Part shown: positions 29,215 to 53,168 of the stretch, piece by piece
How the letters are laid out: each line of letters opens with the position of its first letter
How positions within the stretch are numbered: the stretch's first letter is position 1
From: Acidovorax sp. 210-6
GTDB lineage: Bacteria > Pseudomonadota > Gammaproteobacteria > Burkholderiales > Burkholderiaceae_C
Assembly (NCBI RefSeq): GCF_010020825.1
Contig: NZ_JAACJE010000001.1
Location: 744,001 to 808,000 of the forward strand
Reading direction: 5' to 3'
DNA: 64,000 nucleotides
Notes under the pieces: model-generated
Told to the model about the DNA's origin: nothing
Seen by the model: the letters and a program-made list of their open reading frames with translations, nothing else
Database searches by the model: none
Made by a program: the position numbers and the translations under genes

Positions 29215-29218
29215 GATT

Positions 29219-29266: not shown

Positions 29267-29290
29267 AGATTTCATTGAAAAATACTGACC

Positions 29291-31221: not shown

Positions 31222-31223
31222 TT

Positions 31224-33170: not shown

Positions 33171-33177
33171 GTGCCCC

Positions 33178-33402
33178 ATGAAGAACGTCACCATCACCAT
33201 GGACGACGCAGTGGCCGAATGGGTGCGCGTGGAGGCGGCCAAGCGTGGCAGCAGCGTGTCGCGCCTGCTGGGCGAGTGGCTGGCCGAAAAGATGCGCCAG
33301 GAAGACGCCTACGCCCAGGCCATGCGCGAGGCGCTGGGGTTCGAGTCCTGGGGCGCGTCCACCCGGCCCTACCTGGCGCGGCCTGAGCTGCAGGAGCGCT
33401 GA
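33178..33402 (+). CDS. Putative ribbon-helix-helix antitoxin
   Basis: 74 residues. KNVTITMDDAVAEWVRVEAA and SSVSRLLGEWLAEKM fit a ribbon-helix-helix (CopG/VapB-like) DNA-binding domain; the C-terminal half would wrap the toxin. The ATG at 33178 lies right after the palindromic operators; an in-frame ATG at 33145 lies inside them. The toxin gene begins five bases downstream. Confidence 0.8.
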   Translation: MKNVTITMDDAVAEWVRVEAAKRGSSVSRLLGEWLAEKMRQEDAYAQAMREALGFESWGASTRPYLARPELQER

Positions 33403-33406
33403 AGCC

Positions 33407-35594: not shown

Positions 35595-35609
35595 ATTTCA
35601 AGCCAAAAA

Positions 35610-35658
35610 GGCCTCCGGCGCTTATCTGATATGCGCTAACAGCTATGAATTCAGTAGT
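35610..35658 (-). repeat. Short dispersed repeat overlapping the hisH start
   Basis: Read on the minus strand it has the usual order: imperfect GCTA-type palindrome, CGC...GCG arm and GGCC end. It occupies the hisB-hisH gap, and the hisH ATG at 35645 lies inside the palindrome. Confidence 0.65.
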
Positions 35659-36313
35659 AAAAACCGTGGCGGTGGTGGACTATGGCATGGGCAACCTGCG
35701 CTCGGTGTCGCAGGCCGTGCAGGCCGCTGCACAGGGCACGGGCTGGACGGTGATCGTCACCTCGCGGCCCGAAGAAGTGCGTGCGGCCCAGCGCATCGTG
35801 CTGCCAGGCCAGGGTGCCATGCCCGACTGCATGCGCGAGCTGCGTGACTCGGGCCTGCGCGAATCGGTGCTGGAGGCCGCTGCCGCCAAGCCGCTGTTTG
35901 GCGTTTGCGTGGGCATGCAGATGCTGCTCACGCACAGCGCCGAGGGCGATACGCCGGGCCTGGACCTGATTCCTGGCGAGGTGGTCAAGTTCGACTTGGC
36001 CGGCCGGTTGCAGGCCGATGGCAGCCGCTTCAAGGTGCCGCAAATGGGCTGGAACACCGTGCGCCAGGTGCCGCACGGTGGCACCGTGCACCCGGTGTGG
36101 CAAGGCATTCCGGACCAGAGCCACTTCTATTTCGTGCACAGCTTTTTTGCCCGGCCCACGGACGCACGCCACTGCGCGGGCGAGACCGACTACGGCGGCG
36201 CGTTTGCATCGGCCATTGCGCGCGATAATATTTTTGCGACACAGTTCCACCCGGAAAAGAGTGCGGAGCAGGGCTTGGCGCTCTACCGCAATTTCCTGCA
36301 CTGGAATCCGTGA
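35645..36313 (+). CDS. hisH: Imidazole glycerol phosphate synthase, glutaminase subunit
   Basis: Class I glutamine amidotransferase supplying ammonia to HisF. 222 residues with [12 protein letters not shown], oxyanion loop PGQGAMPDC, nucleophile Cys in [10 protein letters not shown] and the His-Glu pair in ATQFHPEKS. The first codons (MNSVVK) come from the repeat. The synthase partner HisF is not in this window. Confidence 0.96.
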
Positions 36314-36390
36314 GTTCACACCGTTTTTAACCCAGCTTTTGTCACTGCCCGGGCGGCGTTCGCCAATGCCCATTCACCCCTCGCACCACC

Positions 36391-37137
36391 ATGCTTTTGA
36401 TTCCCGCCATCGACCTCAAGGACGGCCATTGCGTACGCCTCAAGCAAGGCGATATGGACCAATCGACCACCTTCGGTGAAGACCCGGCCGCCATGGCGCG
36501 CAAGTGGGTGGACGCGGGCGCGCGCCGCCTGCATCTGGTCGATCTGAACGGCGCGTTCGCGGGCAAGCCCAAGAACTATGCGGCCATCAAGGCCATCCTC
36601 AAAGAGGTGGGCAGCGAGATTCCGGTGCAGCTCGGCGGCGGCATCCGCGACCTGGACACCATCGAGAAATACATCGACGGCGGCCTGCGCTACGTCATCA
36701 TCGGCACGGCGGCCGTCAAGAACCCCGGCTTCCTCAAGGACGCCTGCTCGGCCTTCGGCGGCCACATCATCGTGGGCCTGGACGCCAAGGACGGCAAGGT
36801 GGCCACCGACGGCTGGAGCAAGCTCACAGGGCACGAAGTGGTCGATCTGGCCAAGAAGTTCGAGGACTGGGGCGTCGAGTCCATCGTCTATACCGACATC
36901 GGCCGCGACGGCATGCTCACGGGCATCAATATCGAGGCCACCGTCAAGCTGGCGCAGGCGCTCACCATCCCCGTGATCGCCTCGGGCGGACTGGGCAGCA
37001 TGCAGGACATCGAGAACCTCTGTGCCGTTGAGAACGAAGGCATCGAGGGAGTGATCTGCGGACGGGCCATCTACTCGGGCGACCTCGACTTTGCTGCCGC
37101 GCAGGCGCGCGCCGATGAGATCCAAACACCCCCCTGA
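36391..37137 (+). CDS. hisA: HisA isomerase (ProFAR isomerase)
   Basis: (beta/alpha)8 Amadori isomerase, 248 residues. [20 protein letters not shown] carries the first catalytic Asp, and [15 protein letters not shown] the second; two phosphate-binding half-barrel loops are VQLGGGIRD and IASGGLGS. The final codons and TGA (QTPP, stop at 37135-37137) lie in long repeat copy 3. In related genomes hisF usually follows; here it does not. Confidence 0.96.
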
Positions 37138-37252
37138 GGCCCTGCGGGCCTTCCCCCCGTTCTCGCAGCGCTGCGCGCTGCGGGCAGGGGGACGCCACCG
37201 GTGCGGCGGGGCGGCCCTTGCACGGTGGCCGCTGGTCTGGGCTGCGCCTATT
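37126..37252 (+). repeat. Long dispersed repeat, copy 3, containing the hisA stop
   Basis: The first hairpin is GGCCC-TGC-GGGCC (37138-37150) and the second CGCAGCGC-TGC-GCGCTGCG (37164-37182), followed by the conserved GGGGGACGCCACCGGTGCGG-type block. It supplies the hisA terminal codons. Confidence 0.85.
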
Positions 37253-38142: not shown

Positions 38143-39324
38143 TCAGCAGCCGGGCAGTGCCGTGCCGCGGTTGAGTGCGCTCACCGTGCCGAGCAAGGAC
38201 GTCCAGTAACTGGGCAGGTTGGCCCAAGGGTTGCCGGTGTTGGTGGCAAAGTCGTACAGCAGGTCGGTGGCATAGACCAGGCCCGTGTTGTTTCTTGCCG
38301 AGGCCGCGGCGCGCATGGCTGTTTGCATGGCGGTACAGCTGGTGGCGTTGTGCACCAGCATGGCCTGGGCGGAGTTGGTCTTGGCATAGACCCAGGCACT
38401 GCCGTCCTGGGGGTTGAAGCGGGTGTAGTCGGAGGCCTTGCCTTCGAAAGTGACCAGCACATCGGCAACCCCGGCGTAGTCGGCCACGGGCAGGGTGCCG
38501 GGGTTGCCGATCACCCGCAGTTCCTCGTCCAGGCCTTTGATGTAGCTGTAGATCTGTTTGTAGAAGGCCAGGTGCTGGCTGGTGGCACCCATTTCGTCCA
38601 GGAAGAAGCCGCTGAGCTGGTTGCGGCCGTAGTAGCGCAGGTAGTTGTCGATGTTCTGCTTGATGGCACTGACGGAGCGACCCGTGCCATAGCCGGTGGC
38701 CACGTAGGCCACCACCTGCCCGCCCTCGCCGGTAAAGTCGCTGACCACTCGGGCAAACTGCTCGTCGGCGCTGCTGAAAATGCCGTCGTTCGGGTTCATG
38801 ATGGCTGTCACCTGCACCCCCGGGTAGGCCTGTGCGGTGCTGATCAGCTGATCCCAGGCCGAACCGCTGGGGTTGGGATAGAAGTACGCGGGCACCAGCA
38901 CTTCCAGGGCTTGCGGAGCCGGGCGCAGGTACAGCGTTTGGGTGGCACTGCCGGTCTGCCCCGCAACCGTGGCGCTGGCCTGCACCTGCAGCATGCCGCC
39001 AGCGGTTGCGACCATGGTGGAGGATGCCTGCCCGCCGGTGCTGCTGCTGCGGGCGGGCGAAAAGCTCGCGTTGGCCGCGCTCCACAGCACCGAGGAGCCA
39101 TCGGCCGCGATTGCGCCATTGAAGGTGACCCCCACGGCCACGGGGATGGCGGCACCCACCGTACGCACATTGTCGGTATCGGTGGGGCTGGTGAACTGCA
39201 CGCGCACCTGGCCGGTGGGAGTGGGGGGCGTGGTGCTGTCCGACCCGCCGCCGCAACCGCCCAACAGTGCGGTCAGCAAGGGGATCAGGGCCAGGGGGTG
39301 GAGTGTGGAGGGATGGGAAGTCAT
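38143..39324 (-). CDS. Pel-linked spherulin-4 family (GH135-like) lipoprotein
   Basis: 393 residues: signal peptide with lipobox LTALLGGC (Cys24), an Ig-like beta domain (about 36-135), then a TIM-barrel of the spherulation-specific family 4: EVLVPAYFYPNPSGSAW, TAIMNPNDG, VVAYVATGYGTG, LSGFFLDEMGA and LVTFEGKASDY. In the fungal member Sph3 (GH135), which cuts a GalNAc-containing polymer, the key acids are a DE pair and a downstream Glu; the counterparts here are D243-E244 and E294. It follows pelG in the same direction after 79 bp. The start could also be at 39366. Predicted role (inference): outer-membrane hydrolase acting on Pel. Confidence 0.82.
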   Translation of the reverse strand: MTSHPSTLHPLALIPLLTALLGGCGGGSDSTTPPTPTGQVRVQFTSPTDTDNVRTVGAAIPVAVGVTFNGAIAADGSSVLWSAANASFSPARSSSTGGQASSTMVATAGGMLQVQASATVAGQTGSATQTLYLRPAPQALEVLVPAYFYPNPSGSAWDQLISTAQAYPGVQVTAIMNPNDGIFSSADEQFARVVSDFTGEGGQVVAYVATGYGTGRSVSAIKQNIDNYLRYYGRNQLSGFFLDEMGATSQHLAFYKQIYSYIKGLDEELRVIGNPGTLPVADYAGVADVLVTFEGKASDYTRFNPQDGSAWVYAKTNSAQAMLVHNATSCTAMQTAMRAAASARNNTGLVYATDLLYDFATNTGNPWANLPSYWTSLLGTVSALNRGTALPGC

Positions 39325-39403: not shown

Positions 39404-40777
39404 TCACTGCAGCATGAAGGTTTGGTACTCTAGGCGGTTCAGTCGGCGTGTGAGCAGCGCCAGCCCCGCGCCCAAAGTCAGCAAGGTGGCCAGCGCAAAG
39501 CCGTAGCCATACAGGGCCGCACCATAGGCCAGCGTCCAGCCCGTGAGCAGCACGTTCAGCAGCACAAACAGCACGCACAGCAGCAGCACGGTGCGGCGCT
39601 GGTCCAGGTAGAAGAACACGTTGAGCACGGCCATCAGGCCCACCTGCAGGCCTGCGCCGATCACCTGCACTTGCAGCAGTGGCAGGTACAGGCGCGAGAT
39701 GCCCAGCGCGTCCAGCAGTACCGGCCCGGCGACAAAGGTGACCAGCACGGCCAGGGTCTGGATCTTGGCGATCTCGCCCAGGCCCTGCTGGATGGAATAG
39801 ACCATCTCGTCGCGCATGGTCTCGATGTATTCCAGCGAGCCGCCGCCGCGCACCGCGTCGTAGAACTTGTCGTAGAACTCGACGAAATCCGTTTCGATGC
39901 GCACCAGGAACACGGCCATGCCGGGGATGATGGACAGGTAGGACAGGAACACCGGCAGGTCATAGATGATGGACGCGCGCAGGCTCCCGATGATGGCGTC
40001 CGAGGTGGGCGGGAAGTACCAGAACATGAACTTGTCGATCCACACGCCCAGGTTGTAGAGCAGTCCAATGGCCATGAGTGTGGGGTACAGCATGGCGCGG
40101 CGTGCAAAGTCAAAGGCGATGATGGGCCCCGACGGATTGAACTCGCGCACCACCAGCAGCCACATGCCCACCAGCAGCACATAGTTGCCCAGCACAAAGC
40201 CGCCCAGCAACCCTTCCAGCCCCCAGGGGCGCATCAGCAGCGCGCTCACCACGATGAGTCCGTAGGACACGCCAAACAACAGCACGATGGCCTTGTAGCG
40301 CTTCATGCCCGACAGCAGCACCGTCAGCACCCATACGCCGCACATGAGGGTAAAGCCGGCCAGCATCAGCAGTCGGTATACCAGCCCCAGGCCCGGCAGC
40401 GCGATGAACAGTGCCGCCGTGCCCAGCACGCAGGCCCCCAGCAGCACCAGCACCAGCAGGCCGTGCAGATTGGGCAGCACCATGTCCTTGCGCTTTTCAA
40501 ACAAGCGGTCGGAGATGAAGCGGGTGAACGCCAGCTGCACCAGACCGGTGTAGATCAGGCTGCAGGCCACCAGGTAGGTCACCGAGGTCTGGAACTGCGT
40601 GACCAGGCTTCCGGGGATCACCACGCTGGCGCTGAAGATACCGATCAGCAAGATGCCCACGATGGACAGTACCCAGGGCCCGGAGCCGATGACGCTGGCG
40701 TAGGCATAGGCCTGCACGAGGCCCAGCAGGGTGTCCTTGCGCAGCATGCGCCGCAGCTCAAAGCCAATGCCCGCCAT
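39404..40777 (-). CDS. pelG: Pel exopolysaccharide inner-membrane protein PelG
   Basis: 457-residue polytopic membrane protein (about 12 helices, MATE/Wzx-like fold) that works with PelF, PelD and PelE to make and move Pel across the inner membrane. The N-terminal MAGIGFELRRMLRKDT is the PelG hallmark, and WYFPPTSDAIIGSLRAS is in mid-protein. The ATG at 40777 shares its A with the pelF stop (TGATG). Confidence 0.95.
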   Translation of the reverse strand: MAGIGFELRRMLRKDTLLGLVQAYAYASVIGSGPWVLSIVGILLIGIFSASVVIPGSLVTQFQTSVTYLVACSLIYTGLVQLAFTRFISDRLFEKRKDMVLPNLHGLLVLVLLGACVLGTAALFIALPGLGLVYRLLMLAGFTLMCGVWVLTVLLSGMKRYKAIVLLFGVSYGLIVVSALLMRPWGLEGLLGGFVLGNYVLLVGMWLLVVREFNPSGPIIAFDFARRAMLYPTLMAIGLLYNLGVWIDKFMFWYFPPTSDAIIGSLRASIIYDLPVFLSYLSIIPGMAVFLVRIETDFVEFYDKFYDAVRGGGSLEYIETMRDEMVYSIQQGLGEIAKIQTLAVLVTFVAGPVLLDALGISRLYLPLLQVQVIGAGLQVGLMAVLNVFFYLDQRRTVLLLCVLFVLLNVLLTGWTLAYGAALYGYGFALATLLTLGAGLALLTRRLNRLEYQTFMLQ

Positions 40778-42318
40778 CAGTGCGCTCCCTCGGTGCGTGC
40801 CAGCGCGGTTTCGTACACGGCGCGGTAGCGGTCGAACATCATGGTGTCGGTGTAATAACGCTCCACGCGCGCAATGGCGGCCTGGCTGGCCGCCTGCCAG
40901 GCCGCAGGGTCCTTGAGCAGGGCGAGCGAGGCATCGGCCAGTTGCTGTGGGTCGGCAATGGGCACGATACGGCCTGACGCGCCCAGCGCACGGTCTTCGT
41001 CGTCCAGGCCCTCGACCAACTGGCGGCACGAGCCCACGTCGGTGGACACGGCGGGCACGCCTGCGGCATAGCCTTCGAGCAGCACCAGCGGCAACGCCTC
41101 GCTGATGGAGGAGAGCACCACCAGGCCGATGCGCGGCATCAGGTCTTCCACGCGCTGAAAGCCCAGGAACTTGACATGCTCCTGCAACCCGAGGCTGCGC
41201 ACCAGGTTTTCGCATTCCTGCGCGTAGGCCCGGTCTTCATCGGCGGGCCCGGCAATCCAGCCCTCGGCCTGGGGCAACTGGTTGACCACCCGGCGCATGG
41301 CGCGCACAAAGGTCTTGATGTCCTTGATGGGCACCACGCGCCCGATCAGGCACAGCACGGGCGGTGGATCGGCGGGGCGCTGGGCGCGCAGCGGTGCAAA
41401 GCGCGCCAGGGCAATGCCATTGGGAATGTTGAAGGTGCGCTCGGGCTGCGCGCCGTCAGCCACCTGGCGCAGGCGGTTGGCTTCGTAGAGCGCGATGATG
41501 GGGTTGGCCGATGCGTAGCAGTAGCGGCCCAGCCATTCGAAGAAATGGATCCACATCTGGCGGAAGAACGACAGCTCGGTCGGGTCGCGCTGGAAGATGT
41601 TGCGGTTGTCGCGGATCCACTCGCTCTTGAACAGGTCGATCTTGCGCTCCTTGGTGTAGATGCCATGTTCCGAGAGGATCAGCGGTGTCCCGCGTGTCTG
41701 CTCCAGCAGTGCACCCAGAAAGCCCGCATAGCCCGTGGAAGCGCAGTGCACCGCGCGCACCGGAATCAGGCCTTGCGCCACGCGTGCCAGCAGCCACAGG
41801 GGCTGGAACATGATGCGCACCGTCCAGAAGTAATCCACAAACGAGGGGTCGGTGCAGTGCTTGCGGTACACGTCGCACAGCAGGTTCCAGGCGCGCTCGC
41901 TGTAGAGAAAGTCTTCGAGGTGCATGCTGCCGCCAGGCTGCATGGCGCGCACCACCTGCTGGAACAAGGCCATGGTCTGAGGGCTGTCGGCGCCGGTGCG
42001 CTCCATGGTGGCGATGAGCTGCTCCACCTGGTCGAACGCATGGGCATGGCCCTTGCGCGGCGCGGGCTGGAAGTCGGCATTCAGATGCTCGTAGAGGTAG
42101 TGCTCCTCGAAGTGCACCACGTTGTCTGGCAACTGGTATCTGAAGGCGCCGTAGTCGGCGCGGCGGCTGCCCAGGAACACCAGCGCAAAGCGGTACTGGG
42201 GATACGCGCGCAGGATCTGGTTGATCCAGCTTGACACCCCACCGCTCACGTAGGGGAAGGTGCCTTCGAGCACCAGGGCAATGTCGGCCTGCGTCGCCTT
42301 GGGGTGCGAAGCGGTCAT
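40777..42318 (-). CDS. pelF: Pel glycosyltransferase PelF (GT4)
   Basis: 513-residue cytosolic GT4 family polymerase using UDP-sugar. N-terminal VLEGTFPYVSGGVSSWI is typical of PelF; SEHGIYTKERKIDL, IGRVVPIKDIKTFV and the EX7E donor-site motif SEALPLVLLEGYAAG are intact. It overlaps pelE by 4 bp and pelG by one base. Confidence 0.96.
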   Translation of the reverse strand: MTASHPKATQADIALVLEGTFPYVSGGVSSWINQILRAYPQYRFALVFLGSRRADYGAFRYQLPDNVVHFEEHYLYEHLNADFQPAPRKGHAHAFDQVEQLIATMERTGADSPQTMALFQQVVRAMQPGGSMHLEDFLYSERAWNLLCDVYRKHCTDPSFVDYFWTVRIMFQPLWLLARVAQGLIPVRAVHCASTGYAGFLGALLEQTRGTPLILSEHGIYTKERKIDLFKSEWIRDNRNIFQRDPTELSFFRQMWIHFFEWLGRYCYASANPIIALYEANRLRQVADGAQPERTFNIPNGIALARFAPLRAQRPADPPPVLCLIGRVVPIKDIKTFVRAMRRVVNQLPQAEGWIAGPADEDRAYAQECENLVRSLGLQEHVKFLGFQRVEDLMPRIGLVVLSSISEALPLVLLEGYAAGVPAVSTDVGSCRQLVEGLDDEDRALGASGRIVPIADPQQLADASLALLKDPAAWQAASQAAIARVERYYTDTMMFDRYRAVYETALARTEGAH

Positions 42319-43328
42319 GGGGCGTTCCAGTATTCGATCACCGGGCGCAGCCGGGGCAGCGCGTCCCAGGGGCCCAGGGCATGCACCAAGGCCCGCGCCT
42401 GTGCATAGTCGCCACGTTCAAAGCACAGCTGGGCCTGGTAGGGAAGGACCCTGGTGGCGGGCAGTCCCAGGCGGCTGGCGGCTTCGTAGGATTCCTGGGC
42501 CTCCTGGGGGCGGCGCAGTGCGTGCAGCAGCCGGCCCCGGCGCATGTGCAGGGGCGCGTTCTCGGGCTGTGCGTGCAGCACGGCCTCGCAATGGCGCAGG
42601 GATTCGCGGATGGCGTGCTCGCGCAGGTCGCCCTGCACCAGTTCCTGGTACACCAGTTCCCAGTACAGATCGGACAGGCGGCGCAGGGATTCCAGTCGGG
42701 CTGCATCATCGACAGCGGCACCGGACGCCGAACCATCGGCCTGCAATGCCGACAGTTCCTGGTCAATGGCCTGGTTGATGCGCTTTTCCAGCGAATCGAG
42801 CATGCCGTAGGCCAGCAGGCGCAGGTCTTCGCTGGGGTCGCTCAGCACCGAACGCAGCAGGGGCGAGGCGGTGCGGCCCGACACATACTGCAGCGCGACC
42901 ATGGCGCGCATGCGGGCCTGTATGGGTGCTTCGCTGTTGCCCAGAAACGATCGCAGCCCCGCATGGCGGAAATTGCCCTGGCGATGCTGGTGCAGGTCGA
43001 ATTCTGGCAGTTGAACGGACTCGTACTCGTCGGCGCTGCGCGTGCGGCCCAGGTAGTGCAGCGATAACGCTGCCGCCAGTACGCCCAGAAAACCCGCAAT
43101 GGGCACCGCGTAGCAGCAGGCCACAATCAAAACGATCAGGGGGGCGCGTGGTTGTGCGCGCTCTCGCGGCAGCAAAGGCAGCAGGAACAAGGTCAGCAAA
43201 ACACTGGCCACGGCGTGCAGCAGCAGGTAGGCGGCGAGTGCCTCGTCAGAGTGCTGTTGCAGCAGTGGGCCGCTCCAGGCGCCCACTTCCAGCAGCAAGG
43301 CCGACAGTCCGAGCTTGGGGTTAAGCAT
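42315..43328 (-). CDS. pelE: Pel biosynthesis protein PelE
   Basis: 337 residues with two N-terminal membrane helices (about 33-54 and 63-92) and a C-terminal cytoplasmic TPR-like region including APLHMRRGRLLHALRRPQEA. PelE is thought to bring PelF to the membrane complex. It overlaps pelD by 8 bp and pelF by 4 bp. Confidence 0.92.
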   Translation of the reverse strand: MLNPKLGLSALLLEVGAWSGPLLQQHSDEALAAYLLLHAVASVLLTLFLLPLLPRERAQPRAPLIVLIVACCYAVPIAGFLGVLAAALSLHYLGRTRSADEYESVQLPEFDLHQHRQGNFRHAGLRSFLGNSEAPIQARMRAMVALQYVSGRTASPLLRSVLSDPSEDLRLLAYGMLDSLEKRINQAIDQELSALQADGSASGAAVDDAARLESLRRLSDLYWELVYQELVQGDLREHAIRESLRHCEAVLHAQPENAPLHMRRGRLLHALRRPQEAQESYEAASRLGLPATRVLPYQAQLCFERGDYAQARALVHALGPWDALPRLRPVIEYWNAP

Positions 43329-44721
43329 GGGCCAGTGCGTGCAGGCGCTGCAAGGTGTTCAGCGGGGACAGGGCATCCAGCGACAAGACATGCGGGAAGA
43401 TGCCCGCCTGTGCCGGGGTTTGGCCGCTCTTTTGCTGCAGCCAAGCTTCCAGGCGGGCAATGTAGCCCTCGGCCGTGGCAGCGTTGCCCAAAGGCATGAG
43501 GATGGCCAGCACCGTGCGCTGGGGGGTGGAGATTTCCCAGATCTCATCCAGTTCGCGCTTGAAGCGGTGGATCTGTGCCGGTACGTCCTGTTCCACCGCA
43601 CGGGGCAGGCACTCCAGCGCCACCACGATGCTGCTGACCTGGGTGCTCTGGTGCATGTGGGCCAGACGCTGCGCTTCAAAGGCGAATGGCACCGGGCAGT
43701 CGGGCAATTGCTCCACGATAGGCCGGGCCAGGGTCTGCATCGACAGGCCATCGGTGTAGTACCCCAGCAGCAGGTTGATGGTTTGCAGGTTCTCGGTCTG
43801 CAACGCAAAGAAGGGCATTTCCGTCACGGCCAGCAGGCCGTACACCTCACCGGCCAGATCCAGCAGAGGCGCGACCGCCAGGTAGGCCGACGACTGCTGT
43901 GCGGCCAACGCCTGGCTGATGTGGCACAGCCGACGTGTCTCCAGTGCCTGCTGCACCAGCGGGTCCTGGAGTTCCAGCGTGGCATGGCTCCCCAGTCCGG
44001 CCAGGGGCGCGCTCTCGGGCTCGTCGTCGCGCACGGGGTAGATGGCCGCAGATTCCAGCTGGCAATACTGTGCCAGCAGGCGCAGCAGCGCCTGCGCGCC
44101 CTGCTCGCCGTTGGTCTTTTCGGAGCTCAGGGTCTGCAGTGCCGCCAGGGCGTCGCGCATGGACATGGGGCGGCCAATCAGCTCTTGCTCCAGCCGGTCG
44201 TGCGACAAGCGCAGCAGGTAGTGCTGGCGCACCAGGTGTTCCAGCCGCTGATCGAGGTACATCTGCAGTGTCTCGGAGCGGCGCGCCCGCGCCTGCCAAA
44301 GGCTGGAGAACTCTCCGACGATCATCACCAGAATCAGCCCCCCCAGGAAGTGCACCTGGGGAAACTGATCCAGGGTTTCGAAATGGAACGCCAGCCAGCC
44401 CAGCAGCAGAACCGATGCTCCGCCCAGCCCCGCCAAAGGGCCATAGCGCAGCGCCAGAATCACCGGGGCCAGCCAGGACCACGGGAACGGCGCCTGCGTC
44501 CACAGGGGGTCCTGCGGGCTCCAGAATCGACCCAGTGCAATCGCGATGAGCGGCAGCAACAGGGTTTCGCCGGCAGTGACAGCGGGCCGTTTGTGCAACT
44601 GGGTGAGCTTGCCCAGCAGGTGCGTCGGCAGATGCTTGCCGGCCAGGGCCGCGTGCGGCCGTGTGTCCGCCACGTACGAGGGCTCCGCTGGGGTGACGGG
44701 GGGCTTCGGGGCGTCCTGCAT
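43321..44721 (-). CDS. pelD: c-di-GMP receptor PelD
   Basis: 466 residues: N-terminal cytosolic tail, about four membrane helices (about 48-137), a coiled region, a GAF domain and a degenerate GGDEF domain. The GGDEF active-site signature is absent, but an RxxD inhibitory-site motif, R389-E-L-D392, is present, matching the c-di-GMP-binding site of Pseudomonas PelD. The gene therefore predicts post-translational activation of Pel synthesis by c-di-GMP. Confidence 0.94.
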   Translation of the reverse strand: MQDAPKPPVTPAEPSYVADTRPHAALAGKHLPTHLLGKLTQLHKRPAVTAGETLLLPLIAIALGRFWSPQDPLWTQAPFPWSWLAPVILALRYGPLAGLGGASVLLLGWLAFHFETLDQFPQVHFLGGLILVMIVGEFSSLWQARARRSETLQMYLDQRLEHLVRQHYLLRLSHDRLEQELIGRPMSMRDALAALQTLSSEKTNGEQGAQALLRLLAQYCQLESAAIYPVRDDEPESAPLAGLGSHATLELQDPLVQQALETRRLCHISQALAAQQSSAYLAVAPLLDLAGEVYGLLAVTEMPFFALQTENLQTINLLLGYYTDGLSMQTLARPIVEQLPDCPVPFAFEAQRLAHMHQSTQVSSIVVALECLPRAVEQDVPAQIHRFKRELDEIWEISTPQRTVLAILMPLGNAATAEGYIARLEAWLQQKSGQTPAQAGIFPHVLSLDALSPLNTLQRLHALAHA

Positions 44722-44737: not shown

Positions 44738-45292
44738 TCAGCGGGCGTCCGACAGGCCGGTGTCCAGCAGGGAGCGAATCAGCTTGTGTGCCACGGCAGA
44801 CAAGGCCTCACGGCTCCAGCCGCTCTTGCCACCCGAGCCGCTCCAAAGCATTTCGCCGGTGGCCACGTCAATGATTTGCAGCGTCACCCCTGCGGCAGGT
44901 TCTCCATCCACCCCCACCTTGTAGCGCCACTCCTCCACGGTCCCCGTCAGTGCGTAGCGCACCTTCTGGCCGCGCGCCCATTCGAGGGCTTGCTGGCGGC
45001 GCGTTTCATCGGCGGCATCGAACAGCGCCTCCTGTTGTGTGTTGGTGGGCGCCACGAGTACCTTGCCCGTGCGCGCCACCAGCAAGGACTGTGCAATCGC
45101 CTGGGCGCGGCTTCCGGCCATGGGGGTTTCGGTGTGGTTGGCAAAGGGCAGTACGGTCCACGTGGCCTGGGTCTGCAAGGTGGGTGGCTTGCCACGGTCC
45201 AGGGAGGAGCAGGCGCCCAGCATCAAGGCCAGGCCCAGCGCGGTGCAGGCGGACCAGGTCCGCAGAGAGGAGAAGCGATGGAGCAGGTTCAT
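44738..45292 (-). CDS. pelC: Pel outer-membrane lipoprotein PelC
   Basis: 184-residue lipoprotein with lipobox LALMLGACSS and a mature domain containing WTVLPFANHTETPMAG and YALTGTVEEWRYKVG, the PelC pattern. PelC forms a periplasmic ring that guides the cationic polymer to PelB. AGGAAAGACC lies upstream of the ATG. It follows pelB by 24 bp and precedes pelD by 16 bp. Confidence 0.93.
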   Translation of the reverse strand: MNLLHRFSSLRTWSACTALGLALMLGACSSLDRGKPPTLQTQATWTVLPFANHTETPMAGSRAQAIAQSLLVARTGKVLVAPTNTQQEALFDAADETRRQQALEWARGQKVRYALTGTVEEWRYKVGVDGEPAAGVTLQIIDVATGEMLWSGSGGKSGWSREALSAVAHKLIRSLLDTGLSDAR

Positions 45293-45316: not shown

Positions 45317-48300
45317 TCAGAAAGGGAGACGGTAGCGTAGCTGCCACTCGTTGCTGCGGTCTTGTGACTGGAGCCCGGATTTGGACAGTCCCCAGGCAAT
45401 GCTGAAATGGTCTGCGCCCAGCAGGCTGCCTGCCAAGCCCAGGCGCACGCCGTAGCCTGGGCCCAATCGGCTGTGCCAGGTGCGGCTGACGCTGGCAAAC
45501 GGCTGGAGGGCGCGGGTGTAGTCCTGCTCCAGGCGCGTGTTGCTGGAAGCCTCCAGGCCATAGAACGCGAAGCTTCGTGCTACGAAGGTGCGCGGTCCTT
45601 CCAGTGCGCCGGGTGGCAGAAAATCCAGCGACGGCCAGCCCATGGCGTCCTGGTTGATGCGGTAGCCGTGATAGGAGCCAAAGGCACTGAACTCCAGGTG
45701 CGGCAAATCCTGGCGATAGGTGTGGGTGTAGCGCAGTTCGGTGTGGCGGCCGCTGCCCAACCAATGACCGGTTTGCAGGTAGTAGTCCTCGGCGCGGTAG
45801 TCCCACAGCACGCTGTCCAGGCGCGAGAACTGGTAGCGCAGGGACAGGTGGGCATGGTTCTTCATGCCGGCCAGGCGCAGGGCCAGGCTCTCTTCGCTGG
45901 GTTGGTGCCATCCCAGCTCTGCCATCAGCGTCACGCGGCTGTCCAGGCGCTGCTCGTGGCTGAGCAGCCAGGCATCGGTCTGTTGCCAGCCCTCGCGCCG
46001 CATCCATCCCAGGCGCGTGGCGGTGCTGGCCGTTTTCCAGAGCAGGCGAGCGCCCCACAGGCGCTCCTGGGGGGGCAGGCTGACCACACGAGTGTTGGTC
46101 GATTGGCGGCGGATGCTGTTCCATTCAATGTCCATCGCCAGCCGGGGGGACAGGGCCAGGTGCAGGCTGCCGCCCAATTGGTTTTCGTCCATGCCCGCGA
46201 GCTGGATGTGCCGGGTGTTGGCTTGCACCTGGTCGCTGAAGGCCAGGAGGGATTCGGTCAGCTGCAGGTGCAGGGGTTCGTCGTCGTGTTGGGCGTGTTG
46301 GGTATCGAAGGCCGCGCTTTGGGCGGTGCGCAGGTCTTCCACGGCGCGTGCCGCATTCACGCGGTCGTAGCGTGGCAGCCGTTCGTCAAAGGCTTCGAGC
46401 AGTTCGCCTGCGGCCATGCGGTCGTCTTCGGCCAAGGCGACGGTGATGTCGGCCCAGAGCGGGCGGTGGGTGCGCAGGCTGCGGCTGCGGGCGTACTGGT
46501 GCCACAGAAAACGCCGCTCGGCTGAGTATTCCTGCTGGTCCTGCAGCCAGCCAATGGCGGTCTCGGCGGCTGCGTTGGACAGTTGGCCTTGGTCGTCCAG
46601 GTCCAGACGCATCAGTTCCCGCAGCACGGCATAGGCCGGGTCACCAGGGTTCTGCGTGATTTGCAGGCGCGCACGGGCCACACGCTGCGTGGCGTCCAGG
46701 CCCTGTTGGGTCAGCCACTGCGCGCGCACCAACCCAGGTCGGCCTTGCGCGTTGGGTACCTGCTGCGCGAGCTGTCGCCATTGCTGGCGCAGCAGGTGGC
46801 GGCGCAAATGCCACGCACGGTCGAACTGCTGGTTCTGATCCAATGCGTCGGCGTAGTTCATCATCCAAAGGAAATCGTCCTGTCGTGCCTGCAACTGGGG
46901 CGTCAGGTAGCGCTCCAGCGCCACCTGTGGCTGTGACAAGGCTTGGTAGCTGGACGCCAGCGCGTTGTGCACGGCGGCCTGGCGGCTCCAGGCCACTTCG
47001 TGTCGTGCGAGCAGTTCACGCAGTGCCACGGCATCGTTGCTGTCGATCAGCAGCCACAGCAACGCGGTCTGCATATCGGTGGAGTCCGGGCTTGCGGCCA
47101 GGCCCGCCTGCAAGTGCTCACGGGCCACTGCCAGGCGTCCTGCGTTCTGGTGGTGCGAACCCATGAGGCGCAGGTACTCGGGCATGCGCCAGAGCTTGCG
47201 CAGCGAGCGGCGCGGCGCGTCGGGTGCCGGGTCGAGCAGGGACAGCACGCGGTCAAAGGGTGCCCACTCGCCGCGGCCTGAATACAGCGTCAGGGCCTGG
47301 ATCAGGTGACGCGGTTGGTCGTGGCGCTCCCAGGCGCGCAGTGCCACCTGGGCCGCCTCCAGAGGGTGATCGGGCAGCAGTTGGCGGATCAGGGCGTCCA
47401 AGTCCTCCAGGGGCGCGTCGGGGTTGGCCGCCAGTTGCCGGTAGGCGGTGATCGCCAGTTCGCGGCGCTCCTGGCTCTCGGCAATCTGGCCGGTCAGGCG
47501 CCAGAATTCCGACGCATCGCCCTCCGCGGGCAGGTGGCGCTGGGCGGCCTCCATCCATTGCAGGCCTTCGTCGGGGTGGCCTTGCATCAACGCCAGCACG
47601 GCGGCGGGGACGGCCCTGGCGGGGGTGATCTGCGCGGGATCGCTGAACAGCGAGCGCCAGGCGTTCAGCGCCGTGTCGGGCTGGCCTGCGCGTTCGGCCA
47701 GCCAGGCCAGCCGCTCCAGGCTGGCGGGGCTGCGGGCGTTCTGTTGCAGGTAGCGCAGCGCTGGCTCGGGCTCCCCCAGGCGTTCGTAGGCTTCGACCAG
47801 ATCCTCGATCAGCTCTTCATCGCCCGGTTTGCGGCGCAATTGGTAGTGCAGGGCTTCGATCAGTGCCGCATCATGGAACAGCCCTGGGGCCAGTCGCAGC
47901 ACGGCCTTCCAGGCGTCGTCTTTCTGGGTTTGCCGTGCGATGAACAGCCATTGCTCCAGCGCCTGCACGGGGCGTTCGGTCCATTCGGACACCCGCGCCA
48001 GGCGCTCGCGCCAGACAAGGCTGGAGGGTTGCTGCTGCACGGCGGCGTTGGCCACGGCCCATGCGTCCTCGGGCTTGCCGTTTTCGAGGAACACCTGGTA
48101 GCCCAGCGAAAACGCCTTGTCATCAAAAGGCAGGGCCGGGGCCTTGGGGGTCGGTGCGCTCTGCACGGGCCACGCCACCTGCTGCATCTCCGAGCGCAGG
48201 AGGCTGGCACCGTCGTCGTACTGTGCGGTAGCGGGAGCCTCTTGCGCAGCGTCATACCCAGGCCACGTCCTCAGGAGCGAAATGCGCAGCAGGCGGCGGG

Positions 48301-49156
48301 CATAGCGGTCTGCCACATCGGGACGCCCTGCGGCGCGTGCGATCTCGATGACCAGCAACAGGGTGTCGCGGTCGTCTGCCAGCGGGCCCAACTCGCGCTC
48401 GGCCAGGGCCAGGGCGCCGGCAGGATCATTGCCCGCGCGCAGGGTGCGCAGGGCCTCATGGAAGAAATGCTTGGCCTGTGCGGCGCTGTCGCTGGTGTTG
48501 CGCGCGAGCATGAAAAGCTCTGCGCTGCCCGCATAGTCGCCTGCGGCCAGTGCATCGCGCGCTGCGCGCTCGTAGGAGGTGGCGTCCTGTGGCTGTTGCT
48601 GGGGCTGGGTTTGGGCCCACTGCTGCTCCAGGCGCTTGCGCAGGGCATCGTCACCGAACTGGGCGGCAAGTGTGATGAGCCTGCGTTGGCGATCCAATGG
48701 CCACTCTTCGGCCGCCAGCCTGTGCAGCAGGGCGCGCAACCCGGGGAGCTGCTCCTGGCGTTCGTCCTGGCGGTCTTCGGGGGTGCGCACATACTGGGTG
48801 TAGCGAAGCTCCCACAGTGTCCACAAAGCGTTGCGGTGGATCTCCGGGTTGCTCGATGCCAGTGCGGGGGCGAGTGTCACGTGGGCACTGTCCATCTCGC
48901 CGTGCAGGATTTGCTGGCGCGCCAGCAGCAGGCGCAGGGTGGGGTTTTCTGGGTCGCTGCGCAGCAGGTTGTGCAGGTAGGCGGCAGACAGCGGTGAGTC
49001 GGCCGTTTCGGACAGGCGCCGCTCCAGCGCCTGGCGCGGGTACAGCAGCCACAGGCCACCCGCCACCATGCAGGTGAGCACGGCGATGAGCCAGTCGGGT
49101 GCGAGCACCGGGCGGTCAACGCGCTGGGCAGTGAATCTGGATACGCGCTGTGACAT
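45317..49156 (-). CDS. pelB: Pel outer-membrane export protein PelB
   Basis: 1279 residues. One N-terminal membrane helix (about residues 20-40, DWLIAVLTCMVAGGLWLLYP) is followed by a very long series of TPR helices (about 60-900) and a C-terminal 16-strand beta-barrel domain ending in RYRLPF. The TPRs bind PelA and the barrel exports Pel. It is somewhat longer than the Pseudomonas protein (about 1190). The ATG at 49156 begins MSQRVSRFTAQ and lies inside the pelA 3' end, a 41-bp overlap. Confidence 0.94.
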   Translation of the reverse strand: MSQRVSRFTAQRVDRPVLAPDWLIAVLTCMVAGGLWLLYPRQALERRLSETADSPLSAAYLHNLLRSDPENPTLRLLLARQQILHGEMDSAHVTLAPALASSNPEIHRNALWTLWELRYTQYVRTPEDRQDERQEQLPGLRALLHRLAAEEWPLDRQRRLITLAAQFGDDALRKRLEQQWAQTQPQQQPQDATSYERAARDALAAGDYAGSAELFMLARNTSDSAAQAKHFFHEALRTLRAGNDPAGALALAERELGPLADDRDTLLLVIEIARAAGRPDVADRYARRLLRISLLRTWPGYDAAQEAPATAQYDDGASLLRSEMQQVAWPVQSAPTPKAPALPFDDKAFSLGYQVFLENGKPEDAWAVANAAVQQQPSSLVWRERLARVSEWTERPVQALEQWLFIARQTQKDDAWKAVLRLAPGLFHDAALIEALHYQLRRKPGDEELIEDLVEAYERLGEPEPALRYLQQNARSPASLERLAWLAERAGQPDTALNAWRSLFSDPAQITPARAVPAAVLALMQGHPDEGLQWMEAAQRHLPAEGDASEFWRLTGQIAESQERRELAITAYRQLAANPDAPLEDLDALIRQLLPDHPLEAAQVALRAWERHDQPRHLIQALTLYSGRGEWAPFDRVLSLLDPAPDAPRRSLRKLWRMPEYLRLMGSHHQNAGRLAVAREHLQAGLAASPDSTDMQTALLWLLIDSNDAVALRELLARHEVAWSRQAAVHNALASSYQALSQPQVALERYLTPQLQARQDDFLWMMNYADALDQNQQFDRAWHLRRHLLRQQWRQLAQQVPNAQGRPGLVRAQWLTQQGLDATQRVARARLQITQNPGDPAYAVLRELMRLDLDDQGQLSNAAAETAIGWLQDQQEYSAERRFLWHQYARSRSLRTHRPLWADITVALAEDDRMAAGELLEAFDERLPRYDRVNAARAVEDLRTAQSAAFDTQHAQHDDEPLHLQLTESLLAFSDQVQANTRHIQLAGMDENQLGGSLHLALSPRLAMDIEWNSIRRQSTNTRVVSLPPQERLWGARLLWKTASTATRLGWMRREGWQQTDAWLLSHEQRLDSRVTLMAELGWHQPSEESLALRLAGMKNHAHLSLRYQFSRLDSVLWDYRAEDYYLQTGHWLGSGRHTELRYTHTYRQDLPHLEFSAFGSYHGYRINQDAMGWPSLDFLPPGALEGPRTFVARSFAFYGLEASSNTRLEQDYTRALQPFASVSRTWHSRLGPGYGVRLGLAGSLLGADHFSIAWGLSKSGLQSQDRSNEWQLRYRLPF

Positions 49157-51926
49157 CGTTGAGGCGGTAGTGGCGGATGTCGGTCCGTGCCGGGGTGGGG
49201 CTGGACTGGGGTGCCAGAGTGCGCTGGTGGGCGCGAACCTGACAGGGGGAAGGGATGTGCAGGCTGAATTCCAACGGCCCGTGGCCCTGCAATTGGAATT
49301 CGCCGCCCTGGGCCTGCATGTCCCAATGCGTGATGCGGGCATTGGCATCGCGCAGTGCGGGCGCGGCCGGTGTTTGCATGGGCGCGGCGCGCAACCAGGC
49401 CTGACCACCGGTGAGGTGGGCGTAAGTGCCCTCAGGGCCTTCGCTCCAACCCGCGACGCCCCGGCTGCGCTCGGGTTGTGCCGCCCCCAGGACTGTGGGC
49501 AGGCGCAGCGTGCGCAAGGCACCGTTGCCGCGCACGCGCCAGCCTTCACCTTCGCGTGCCAGTGCCAGGCCATGGAAGTCCTGCACCTTGGCGATGAACT
49601 CCGATGTGAACACCGGGTGCAGCGGCTGGGCCAGTGCCCAGCCATACACCTTGTGCAGCGCTTTCAATCCGGCAGGCTTGCTGGCTGAGTAGGTGTGGTA
49701 GTAGATGCCTACGGGTTTGATGCGGCGCGGCGCGTTGGTCAGCTCAAAGGTCTCGATGGCGCGTTCGAACCCGTAGAACGGGCCTTTCCAGAGGTTGGTG
49801 TAGATGTTTTCGTTGGTGATGGGGGCATACACCTGCAGGTGTCCGGCCTTGTGGATGCCCAGTGCTCCAATGGCCGTGAGCGAGGGATTGGCGCGGGTGA
49901 TGAAGGTGTCGCCCCCGTTGATGTTCAGCAGGCCGGCTTCCTCGGTGATCTTGAGTGCTTCGGTGCTGGGAGCGGTGTCGCCGGACCACTGCAGGATGCG
50001 CACCGGCTTGCCTTGCGGCACCAAGTGATCTCGGATGTAGGCAATGGAGCCGACGATTTCGCGCTGCAGGTCGAACCGGTAGTTGGGCAGCGGCAACTGG
50101 TAGGCGGCACTGCCGTCGTCTTTGAACACGCCATGGCGCACCGCGCGATCCCACAGGAAGGGGTGCGAATAGGTGTGGCTGGCGGCCTCGATGTGGGGCA
50201 GCTTGAACATCGCCTTGGCAATCGCCTGCAACTGGGGGCTTTGGGCGGGATACAGGCCGTGGGGCGCGACCTCGGCTTCGATGACCGACATGGTTTGCGG
50301 AATGCGGTAGCGCATGAACACGTCACGCAGCAGAACCTCCGCCGCCAGCGGACTGCCGGGCAGTTCGGCCAGCGAAGGGAAGCCGTCTCCGTCCACATGC
50401 GCGAGCAACAGGCGGCGGCCGTTCTCGGTGGTGGTGTCGGGCACCGGAATGGCGGGCAGGCGCAGTGCCTGGGTGAGAAAGGCGAAAGGGTCGATCACCC
50501 AGCGCGAGTACTCGGTGCCGGGCACGTTCACCAGTGTGTAGGGCTCCAGCACGAAGCCGCCCCAGGACGTCAGGGCAGCGGCGACCTGCTCACGCTGGGA
50601 TTTGCCCCGGAAGGCCACCAGGGGGGAGGCCTGAGGTTTTTCCTGGGCACTGAGGAGGAACAACTCCACGTCGTTGCCAGGTTTGGGTGGTGGGGCCTCG
50701 AGGCCCACCATTGCATGGTAGGGCAGCGGCTCCAACGGGGCGGACGTTCGCGCAGCGGACTCCAGCCCCAACTTGCGTGCCAAGCCGGGCGGGGGTGTCA
50801 GTCCGAACCCGCCAACCACGGCCATGGGCACCTTGTGGGCCAGTTGCCGCTCTATCCAGGCCGCGAGCGCCGCCTGCTTGCCTTCGGGCAGGTAGCCCGA
50901 GAAGCTGAGCACGATGCCTGCATAGCGATCAGGCAGGATGGGTTCGGGCAGCGGCTCCAAGGCGTCGCGCAGCTCCACGGTGTAGCCCAGGTGGTTCAGG
51001 GGCATTTGCAGGAACCGGTGCGCCACGGAGTAGTTGACCGAAGGCGACTCCTCGGCGTTGTAGATCATCAGCACCTTGCGTGCCACCGGCTCGATGCTGC
51101 CCATGCCCACGCCGGACAGCTCGGCATTGCTGACCCAGGGGGTGAACCCGTCGGCCAGGATCTTCTGGGCTGTGGCGCGTGCCAGCGTGCGGTCGTGCGG
51201 CGGCACATAGTCGATCACCAGGACCGGCAGGCCATGGCGCTCGCGTACCTGTTGCAGCTGGCCCAGCAGCCAGCTGCGGTCGGCCTCGGGGACTTCTTCG
51301 TATTGGCGCTGGGTAGCGTTCCAGCGGCGATAGAGCGACTCGGCGGCCACCCATTCGATCTGGCCTGGCAGTTGCGGCACGATGTCGAAGCCCCGGTTCA
51401 GCATGAGCCGGATGCCCGGAAACCGCTGGTGCAGCCCGCGGATCAGTTGCACCAAGCCTTGTTGCTGCGCCTGTTCGTCAAAGCGCTCGGCCAGGCGGTA
51501 CGAGTCCAGCGTGTCCAGGAAAAAGCCCCGGTAGCCTTGTGCCCACAGCGGTGCAATCACGCGGGTGGCAAAAAACTCTGGCCAACCGGGGGCACTTTGG
51601 TCGATCAGGTCTGATCCCCAGGCAGGATTGCGCCCTATCTTCCAGTCGACCGGGATGTCGGCGTAATAGGCGCGGGAGGGCTGTACCTCCGTGACGGAGG
51701 CATAGGCATAGAACTGGGTGCCGTCCCACGCAGGCAGCGGCTGCTGCCGGTAGTGGTCTGGATCCACCACCACCAGGTCGAATGCGCGAAAATCGGCCAG
51801 GCCTGCGCGTTCGCCGTAGTACAGCGCCACCGCAGGTGCTGCATGCGCTGCCAGAGGCCAGCACAGCGCTGCCATCAAGGCCAGTAGGCAGGTTCGTACG
51901 AATGGAAAACGCAAATCCAGCAACAT
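49116..51926 (-). CDS. pelA: Pel deacetylase/hydrolase PelA
   Basis: 936 residues. A signal peptide (about 1-29, ending AAHA) is followed by a GH166-type hydrolase domain with D138 (GYRGFFLDTL) and E196 (WVAAESLYRRW). These lie 22 positions before Pseudomonas D160 and E218. A middle reductase-like domain comes next, then the CE18-type deacetylase with HVDGDGF and metal-binding SHTYSHPF. PelA trims and partly deacetylates Pel in the periplasm. The start is uncertain: ATG 51926 gives a clean signal peptide, while in-frame ATGs up to 52055 add residues. Confidence 0.95.
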   Translation of the reverse strand: MLLDLRFPFVRTCLLALMAALCWPLAAHAAPAVALYYGERAGLADFRAFDLVVVDPDHYRQQPLPAWDGTQFYAYASVTEVQPSRAYYADIPVDWKIGRNPAWGSDLIDQSAPGWPEFFATRVIAPLWAQGYRGFFLDTLDSYRLAERFDEQAQQQGLVQLIRGLHQRFPGIRLMLNRGFDIVPQLPGQIEWVAAESLYRRWNATQRQYEEVPEADRSWLLGQLQQVRERHGLPVLVIDYVPPHDRTLARATAQKILADGFTPWVSNAELSGVGMGSIEPVARKVLMIYNAEESPSVNYSVAHRFLQMPLNHLGYTVELRDALEPLPEPILPDRYAGIVLSFSGYLPEGKQAALAAWIERQLAHKVPMAVVGGFGLTPPPGLARKLGLESAARTSAPLEPLPYHAMVGLEAPPPKPGNDVELFLLSAQEKPQASPLVAFRGKSQREQVAAALTSWGGFVLEPYTLVNVPGTEYSRWVIDPFAFLTQALRLPAIPVPDTTTENGRRLLLAHVDGDGFPSLAELPGSPLAAEVLLRDVFMRYRIPQTMSVIEAEVAPHGLYPAQSPQLQAIAKAMFKLPHIEAASHTYSHPFLWDRAVRHGVFKDDGSAAYQLPLPNYRFDLQREIVGSIAYIRDHLVPQGKPVRILQWSGDTAPSTEALKITEEAGLLNINGGDTFITRANPSLTAIGALGIHKAGHLQVYAPITNENIYTNLWKGPFYGFERAIETFELTNAPRRIKPVGIYYHTYSASKPAGLKALHKVYGWALAQPLHPVFTSEFIAKVQDFHGLALAREGEGWRVRGNGALRTLRLPTVLGAAQPERSRGVAGWSEGPEGTYAHLTGGQAWLRAAPMQTPAAPALRDANARITHWDMQAQGGEFQLQGHGPLEFSLHIPSPCQVRAHQRTLAPQSSPTPARTDIRHYRLNDVTARIQIHCPAR

Positions 51927-52148
51927 GCCAAAGTGTCGCAGCACGATCAAGAGAAAAACAAGCAGGGATGTATAAGAACAGAAGGTCATTGCGAACGGGT
52001 GTCGCATGACCTGAATGGATGTTGCGGAAGGCTTGCTCCGCACATATGTTCCCAAACGTCACAATCATTGATTTTAGACAAACACCAATAGTTTTGGCGT
52101 ATCTTTGACTGTTCCATTATTGTATTTTTAGATTTGCAGGGGCTGAGA

Positions 52149-53168
52149 ATGATTCTTGTGACTGGTGGGGCGGGCTACATCGGATCCCACACCTGTGTGG
52201 CGCTGGCGCAGGCGGGTATGCCTTGCCTGGTGCTGGACAACTTCTGCAACAGCCGTCCCGATGCGCTGGAGCGCGTCGGGCGCATCACCGGCCAGGTGCC
52301 GGCGCATGTGCAAGGGGATGTGCGTGACTCGGCCTTGCTGGACGATCTGTTTGCGCGCCATCCGATCCAGGCGGTGATCCACTTCGCGGCGCTCAAGGCC
52401 GTGGGTGAGTCGGTGCGCGAGCCGTTGCGTTATTACGACAACAACGTGGCGGGCACGGTGTCGCTCCTGCAGGCCATGCGGCGTGCCGGGGTGCGCACCT
52501 TGGTGTTTTCCTCGTCGGCCACGGTGTATGGTGACCCGGCACAACTGCCGATTCGCGAGGACTTTCCGCTCAGCGCCACCAATCCCTACGGCTGGAGCAA
52601 GCTCATGATGGAGCAGGTGCTGGCCGATCTGGATACCTCCGAGCCTGGCCAGTGGCGGCTGGCGCGGCTGCGCTATTTCAACCCCGTGGGTGCGCATGAA
52701 AGCGGCCTCATTGGCGAAGACCCGCAGGGTATTCCCAACAACCTGCTCCCCTTCGTGGCCCAGGTGGCCGTGGGCCAGCGCGAACGCCTGAGCGTCTATG
52801 GCGACGATTACCAGACCGTTGATGGCACGGGGGTACGGGACTACATCCATGTCAGCGACCTGGCGCAAGGCCATGTGGATGCGCTGCGCTATCTGGAACG
52901 CCATCCAGGCCTGCTGACTGTGAACCTGGGCACGGGCCGCCCGGTGTCGGTGCTGGAGATGGTGCGGGCCTTCGAACAGGCCAGCGGCCGTCCCGTGCCC
53001 TACCAGGTGGTGCCACGCCGCCCTGGTGATGTGGCTGCCTGCTGGGCCGATCCCACGCTGGCGCAGCAACTGCTGGGCTGGTGTGCGCAGCATGGCGTGC
53101 AGCGCATGTGCGAGGACGCCTGGCGCTGGCAGAACGGCGAGGCCCGCACACTGAAAAATGCTATCTAA
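52149..53168 (+). CDS. galE: UDP-sugar 4-epimerase (GalE-type, possible PelX role)
   Basis: 339-residue short-chain dehydrogenase that interconverts UDP-hexose C4 epimers. NAD site VTGGAGYIGSH, catalytic SSSATVYG and YxxxK in NPYGWSK are present. The gatekeeper position (Tyr299 in E. coli, Cys307 in human GALE) is Cys298 in DVAACWADP, which in known enzymes lets UDP-GlcNAc/GalNAc fit. It diverges from pelA, as expected for a Pel precursor enzyme. A TTG at 52134 is an alternative start. The last codons and stop come from a short repeat. Confidence 0.93.
   Translation: MILVTGGAGYIGSHTCVALAQAGMPCLVLDNFCNSRPDALERVGRITGQVPAHVQGDVRDSALLDDLFARHPIQAVIHFAALKAVGESVREPLRYYDNNVAGTVSLLQAMRRAGVRTLVFSSSATVYGDPAQLPIREDFPLSATNPYGWSKLMMEQVLADLDTSEPGQWRLARLRYFNPVGAHESGLIGEDPQGIPNNLLPFVAQVAVGQRERLSVYGDDYQTVDGTGVRDYIHVSDLAQGHVDALRYLERHPGLLTVNLGTGRPVSVLEMVRAFEQASGRPVPYQVVPRRPGDVAACWADPTLAQQLLGWCAQHGVQRMCEDAWRWQNGEARTLKNAI

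Follow-up and report, generated by a model that had tools for sequence, protein, structure and literature searches.

A GH135 lipoprotein gene at the end of a complete pel operon in Acidovorax sp. 210-6 and its probable role as a second, separate Pel-trimming enzyme

Acidovorax sp. 210-6 and related bacteria probably make a second, separate enzyme that trims the polymer Pel, since the pairing of a GH135 (Spherulin4) gene with pel genes recurs in other bacterial groups. In the analysed stretch of DNA (the window, 64,000 nucleotides), a GH135 lipoprotein gene follows a complete pelABCDEFG operon encoded on one strand, in which pelC and pelE were identified partly by position (Table 1). We think it fairly likely that this gene encodes an outer-membrane-anchored endo-alpha-1,4-N-acetylgalactosaminidase that is functionally part of the pel system. 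Pel occurs widely as a biofilm polymer. With a further hydrolase anchored on its own, many environmental Comamonadaceae would be able to adjust for themselves how much Pel is free and how much is bound. The linkage to pel would also supply a functional context for bacterial GH135 proteins, as members of this family are mostly bacterial while the characterised member named in the accessible text of PMC12054363 is fungal.

Table 1 Features of the extended pel operon and of the GH135 lipoprotein (window coordinates).
Feature	Position	Strand	Basis or remark
GH135/Spherulin4 lipoprotein gene	38143..39324	-	last gene of extended pel operon; 393 aa + stop
GH135 (beta/alpha)8 barrel, residues 137-386	38167..38916	-	PF12138, AF2 model, Sph3 Z 28.2
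E294	38443..38445	-	counterpart of Sph3 E222; invariant in 47/47 rows
D243-E244	38593..38598	-	counterpart of Sph3 D166-E167; invariant in 47/47 rows
Ig-like beta-sandwich domain, residues 38-136	38917..39213	-	AF2 model strands; Big_1 in relatives
Lipobox L-G-G-C (C24)	39253..39264	-	read from sequence
pelG	39404..40777	-	PF16933, E 5.6e-157
pelF	40777..42318	-	NF038011 PelF, 798.6 bits, cut-off 100
pelE (TPR protein)	42315..43328	-	TPR matches and position
pelD	43321..44721	-	PF16963 PelD_GGDEF, E 1.3e-34
pelC lipoprotein	44738..45292	-	position and lipobox by eye; weak LpoB match under its cut-off
pelB (start inferred)	45317..49156	-	PF24604 PelB barrel, E 2.9e-79
pelA, GH166 + deacetylase (start inferred)	49116..51989	-	phmmer PelA 9cgy, E 2.5e-182, 5tcb; PF03537
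galE-like UDP-sugar 4-epimerase	52134..53168	+	divergent from pelA; phmmer 3enk, E 2.8e-136

The initial annotation of this DNA had placed the gene after pelG in the same direction, and it indeed starts on the minus strand 79 nt downstream of the pelG stop, which ends at 39404; an alternative in-frame ATG at 39366 would add 14 codons. A promoter and terminator scan of the 79-nt gap found no such site, a result that is no proof of joint transcription. The gene may be transcribed together with pelG. At the other end of the operon, a galE-like gene stands divergently beside pelA in all 17 family genomes examined. Compared with 6wj9/6wjb (PelX), GalE structures such as 3enk are far closer to the window epimerase. 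The GH135 gene itself is under purifying selection, with dN/dS values of about 0.10 and 0.21 against relatives 98% and 77% identical, respectively. Among the best 80 of 142 matches, the closest named locus belongs to a Giesbergeria MAG (L032, 98% identity).

By profile, predicted fold and acidic residues, the window protein is a member of the GH135 family with a predicted hydrolase activity. PF12138 (Spherulin4) covers residues 141-380 (E 3e-48, 164.9 bits against a Pfam cut-off of 30.2) and is the sole match at E <= 0.001, with no match to PF03537, the profile of PelA. The protein is laid out as a signal peptide with a lipobox, a Ser/Thr/Pro-rich linker, an Ig-like domain and a (beta/alpha)8 barrel. 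In the AF2 model, the barrel has a mean pLDDT of 92.4, residues 1-29 are below 50, and the Ig-like region shows nine strands (residues 40-134). The lipobox cysteine is followed by G-G-G-S, with no Asp at +2 (LGGC-G). All 17 aligned family members share this cysteine; for most of them the start was picked with a lipobox in mind. Neither Pfam nor NCBIfam names an Ig family in the window protein, and Big_1 is matched by 12 of 47 aligned GH135 members at E <= 0.1 (best 4.4e-5). The lipobox and Ig-like domain first noticed in the letters are thus borne out by the LGGC motif, the modelled strands and the relatives.

Sph3, the GH135 enzyme of Aspergillus, is the best match among PDB sequences and among the structures re-aligned here. 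Its two entries (5c5g/5d6t) are the only PDB sequences matched by phmmer at E <= 1, with E about 4e-15, and the barrel model superposes on Sph3 with Z 28.2 and an rmsd of 2.1 A over 231 residues at 23% identity. With 1000 chains re-aligned, the second-best structural match reaches Z 15.8 and Sph3 stands far apart from the rest; a GH191 enzyme appears at Z 14.6, and the 50 matches listed in each fold search include no PelA hydrolase domain, an absence that carries no weight either way. When Sph3 is added to the 47-row alignment, its D166, E167 and E222 fall in the columns of D243, E244 and E294, a mapping that rests on sequence alignment because the structural aligner gives no residue pairs. 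Sixteen columns do not vary among the 47 rows; Sph3 is identical in 13 of them, gapped in one and different in two, namely I175, which is V in Sph3, and Y255, which is L in this alignment but Y in the phmmer alignment. Asp166, Glu167 and Glu222 are the putative catalytic residues of Sph3 in the available text of PMC10485009; that of PMC12054363 gives Asp196/Glu222, where "196" is probably a misprint. The Sph3-type acids proposed in the initial annotation are therefore in place and aligned with those of Sph3, on a modelled barrel that superposes closely. The net charge of the barrel was dropped as a hint to the substrate, since Sph3, which acts on a neutral polymer, has 33 acidic and 18 basic residues. 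The values range from -7 to +3, close to neutral, in pelG-linked barrels and go down to -24 in some other members.

Linkage to pel is frequent within the family. In a sample of 299 genomes of the window's family (Comamonadaceae), PF12138 is found in 36 and PelG in 43, of which 41 are over the cut-off; the two PelG matches under it were left out of the Fisher counts, in which PelG was counted over the cut-off. PelG is present in 26 of 36 genomes with GH135 and in 15 of 263 without it (Fisher p 5e-19, shared ancestry ignored). In 15 of the 41 PelG-positive genomes, distributed over six genera, the GH135 gene comes immediately after pelG in the same orientation, and the other 26 have no adjacent GH135. 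Among the 26 genomes that carry both, it is 16.5 kb from pelG on the opposite strand in two and far from pelG or on another contig in nine. A scan of named genomes, in which the best 80 of 142 matches (77 loci) were kept and which therefore favours close relatives, places GH135 after pelG on the same strand in 32 of 77 loci; the gap measures 20-180 nt in the 30 of these whose start could be set. These loci belong to Giesbergeria, Simplicispira, Acidovorax, Paenacidovorax, Paracidovorax, Xylophilus and relatives. Two GH135 genes follow pelG in tandem in 10 of the 32; these tandem loci (L040, L047, L048, L056, L059, L062, L064, L065, L066 and L069) come from Paracidovorax, Xylophilus and relatives. 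The operon of Simplicispira lacusdiani (L041) has a single copy.

The lipoprotein could also be a foraging or competition enzyme that degrades the GAG or Pel of other organisms and lies near pel by chance or for regulation. A second GH135 copy elsewhere in the same genome would fit such a use, as would the 10 of 36 GH135-positive family genomes with no PelG over the cut-off and the GH135 members of Planctomycetota and Verrucomicrobiota, in whose genomes no PelG was found. The repeated and separately arranged linkage to pel, the short gaps and the tandem copies after pelG argue against it, and we consider this explanation improbable.

The GH135 gene adjoins hisA, and no pel gene is found closer than 10 kb, in Delftia (L051-L054), in a related MAG (L067) and in Comamonas composti (L077), though all six genomes contain PelG. 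In G289, a genome whose copy groups with Delftia in the tree, the block lying between pelG and the GH135 gene matches window positions 20255-37118 in reversed order, which is consistent with an inversion of about 17 kb with one end at the pelG/GH135 junction. In a genome of the same genus (G141), pelG and the GH135 gene are on different contigs. On both contigs of that draft (L123 and L124), similarity to the window ends inside the 79-nt gap, at the same junction where the Delftia-type inversion ends.

Outside the family the linkage takes other forms. In Zoogloea, the end of the GH135 gene is separated by 27 nt from pelA, which follows on the same strand, in one locus (L103), and by 73 nt in another (L107). 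Two further copies (L100, L102) lie so close to a contig end that at most about 110 nt remain beyond them. GH135 occurs in only 4 of 61 genomes sampled from the family of L103. In 117 genomes of Paraburkholderia, a genus sample around P. bryophila, GH135 is found in 19, PelA in 49 and both in 18, so that PelA accompanies 18 of 19 genomes with GH135 and 31 of 98 without (p 2e-7, shared ancestry ignored). Nine of the 117 carry GH135 divergently beside pelA, with 0.94-1.03 kb between the matched stretches. In the order sample, none of 33 PelG-positive genomes of other families has an adjacent GH135 gene, and five have one elsewhere in the genome. Few genomes of the phylum sample contain PF12138 (9 of 398, of which 6 belong to the window's family). 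Recurrent linkage to pel genes, which had been named as a check on the initial annotation, is thus seen in the family as well as in Zoogloea and Paraburkholderia.

A quick tree with Sph3 as its root, computed for 119 barrels after leaving out two partial sequences (L078, L080) and 18 identical barrels, bears on whether the gene sits between pelG and hisA simply by descent, unrelated to Pel. A single clade of 69 rows (SH-aLRT 92) takes in every one of the 50 pelG-adjacent rows and also 11 unlinked ones, as would be expected of an inherited neighbour, and the Delftia gene beside hisA and away from pelG, consistent with the inversion of about 17 kb, agrees with this as well. The Zoogloea and Paraburkholderia rows, however, are placed outside that clade among unlinked members, and this placement indicates that the association of GH135 with pel arose more than once or was rebuilt. 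As these two groups put distant GH135 genes beside pelA in other contexts, and as GH135 co-occurs with pel in two taxa, mere inheritance of position is very improbable.

The state of PelA next to GH135 differs between groups. The GH166 acids of the window PelA are intact, and the GH166 motifs FLDT, NRGF and ES are all present in PelA of all 17 family genomes with a linked GH135 gene (15 adjacent, two at 16.5 kb). The initial annotation had argued that PelA already carries a hydrolase domain, and its description of the lipoprotein as a second hydrolase fits these intact acids; in the Comamonadaceae examined GH135 is therefore predicted to be an additional hydrolase. A replacement of the PelA hydrolase by GH135 in Comamonadaceae was rejected, since none of the 17 genomes examined has lost the acids or NRGF.

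In Paraburkholderia, a stretch of about 30 residues preceding the Asp motif is absent from the PelA type next to GH135 in all 26 loci that allowed the measurement. NRGF is missing in all 30 loci of this PelA lineage (L142-L171), while the deacetylase part remains, and the catalytic Glu has become Asp or Pro in 26 of the 30. Four of the 30 loci, in which the longest frame is not PelA (L148, L161, L166, L168), were dropped from the first PelA check and then re-read for two motifs. For the PelA of L105, the sole Pfam match is the deacetylase, under its cut-off. GH135 is adjacent in one clade only of the eroded-PelA lineage, in 9 of its 10 members; among the other 33 genomes of the lineage it is elsewhere in 8 and was found in none of the remaining 25. 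Erosion is thus wider than the GH135-adjacent clade and probably came first. A strict coupling between erosion and GH135 in Paraburkholderia is unsupported, the lineage being eroded in 30 of 30 loci with GH135 adjacent in one clade. Some Paraburkholderia also have a second type of PelA, 47-49% identical to the PelA of L105, whose GH166 motifs are intact in all five genomes checked, three of them with an adjacent GH135. In at least three of the nine GH135-adjacent Paraburkholderia, GH135 is therefore not the only candidate hydrolase, and any standing-in by GH135 would concern the local pel locus and not always the whole genome. In P. domus (L104), where GH135 adjoins the eroded type, one PelA was found. 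With a decayed GH166 domain and an adjacent GH135 gene, the Paraburkholderia loci offer a natural test of whether GH135 can stand in for GH166.

In the proposed mechanism, PelF and PelG would make and move an alpha-1,4-GalNAc polymer, periplasmic PelA would partly deacetylate and cut it, and PelB and PelC would pass it through the outer membrane. There the lipoprotein, tethered by C24 and the flexible linker and spaced by the Ig-like domain, would meet the polymer, and the D243/E244/E294 site would cut its acetylated stretches, setting chain length and the share of released versus cell-bound Pel. Most likely, GH135 trims or releases Pel, perhaps at its acetylated stretches. According to the accessible text of PMC12054363, Sph3 acts specifically on acetylated polymer, and partly deacetylated stretches are what GH166 prefers. 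Cutting of acetylated stretches at the outer membrane therefore appears to be the likeliest activity, in a division of labour resembling that of fungal Sph3 and Ega3. P. aeruginosa Pel is mainly a GalN-GalNAc repeat (PMC9135694, in part), and in that organism the PelA hydrolase activity generates the secreted form of Pel (PMC9894940, in part). According to the text available from PMC12345266, Sph3 breaks GalNAc-rich aggregates of S. intermedius and does not disrupt the Pel biofilm of P. aeruginosa, which the PelA hydrolase domain does disrupt. These properties of Sph3 and of P. aeruginosa Pel count against the proposed cutting of Pel, and cleavage by GH135 may therefore be limited to acetylated stretches.

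The initial annotation placed the putative Pel-cleaving enzyme at the surface of the outer membrane. A lipobox-like motif is found in most pelG-linked GH135 copies and suggests an outer-membrane lipoprotein, whichever the leaflet. Zoogloea and many unlinked betaproteobacterial copies carry PEP-CTERM-like tails instead, which are frequent outside the pelG-linked clade (L103, L107, L081, L082, L114, L118, L090, L026 and others). TIGR02595 scores over its 16-bit cut-off for all five tails tested, narrowly so for the Zoogloea tail (16.7), while two full Zoogloea proteins stay below it at 13.6 and 14 bits. Two unrelated anchor signals point to an enzyme that stays at the envelope, probably on the outside. 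Alternatively, the same enzyme might face the periplasm and clear acetylated Pel missed by PelA or PelB, a reading that overlaps with surface trimming and that we regard as rather unlikely. Lipoproteins of Gram-negatives face the periplasm in most cases, and the lipoprotein PelC does so too. Moreover, Sph3 is reported to be essential for GAG synthesis and has been proposed to prevent clogging next to the fungal synthase (PMC12054363, in the text accessible). The PEP-CTERM-like tails of Zoogloea and other betaproteobacterial homologues, in contrast, point to the cell surface.

The window protein shares with Sph3 the barrel, the D/E/E site and the position next to a synthesis cluster for an alpha-1,4-GalNAc polymer. 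Sph3 is fungal and thought to work beside the synthase, whereas the lipoprotein described here is bacterial, carries an Ig-like domain and has a predicted activity. The GH166 domain of PelA belongs to the same pathway and has a barrel fold and an Asp/Glu pair as in GH135, but it is part of periplasmic PelA, is assigned to another CAZy family and, as noted above, has the other substrate preference. Gram-positive pel loci, as far as described in the text available from PMC7112168 and PMC12345266, likewise have a separate hydrolase gene beside pel (B. cereus PelAH, S. intermedius SIR_1591). In B. cereus the accessory PelAH occurs in loci whose PelA has no hydrolase domain, and the description given for SIR_1591 is that of a TIM barrel with DUF4832, not of a GH135 protein. 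Some Actinobacteria agd3 operons place a spherulin-4 (GH135) gene beside a GAG-like polymer cluster, as here (PMC7229062, in part), but differ from the complete Gram-negative pelABCDEFG operon of the window; the same text reports pel outer-membrane genes in Gram-negative agd3 operons. The initial annotation knew of no Pel locus described with a GH135 gene, and a literature search found none among the matches listed, subscription papers and supplements being outside its scope. PMC7112168 and PMC7112194 describe pel loci and the main text of neither contains "spherulin", that of PMC7112168 also containing neither GH135 nor Sph3; the accessible portions of PMC12833820 and PMC10485009 name Sph3/GH135 solely as a fungal enzyme. 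The pel operon with an added GH135 lipoprotein thus appears to be new, while spherulin-4 in Actinobacteria agd3 operons was already in print.

All five roles of the fungal GAG cluster (uge3, gtb3, agd3, ega3 and sph3; PMC7229062, in part) have a counterpart at the window locus, namely the galE-like gene, PelF/PelG, the PelA deacetylase, the PelA hydrolase and GH135, in a match by role in which homology was compared for GH135 and Sph3 only. We can tentatively picture GH135 as a movable Pel hydrolase that was added to pel loci at least three times, sharing the work with an intact PelA in an Sph3/Ega3-like split (GH135 on acetylated, GH166 on deacetylated polymer) and serving as a stand-in where the local PelA hydrolase has decayed, as in Paraburkholderia. 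If this is true, pel together with galE and GH135 would be the bacterial equivalent of the fungal GAG cluster with all its five enzymes. It would then also bear on the proposal that fungi took the GAG cluster from bacteria, an earlier idea that PMC7229062 backs in the text available.

An interspersed repeat of about 120 bp has five copies in the window (20973-21091, 28808-28926, 37130-37248, 61561-61679 and 63390-63513), which are 66-90% alike to the copy at 37130, and an Rfam scan of the window gave no match, this repeat included. One copy lies at the end of hisA and before the epimerase-like gene, and the repeat is also found in the relative L124. The second GH135 lipoprotein gene of the genome (L002, G000:C2:1066255-1066974) has a neighbour that by eye resembles phosphoenolpyruvate carboxylase, and it falls in an unlinked subclade nested among pel-linked copies.
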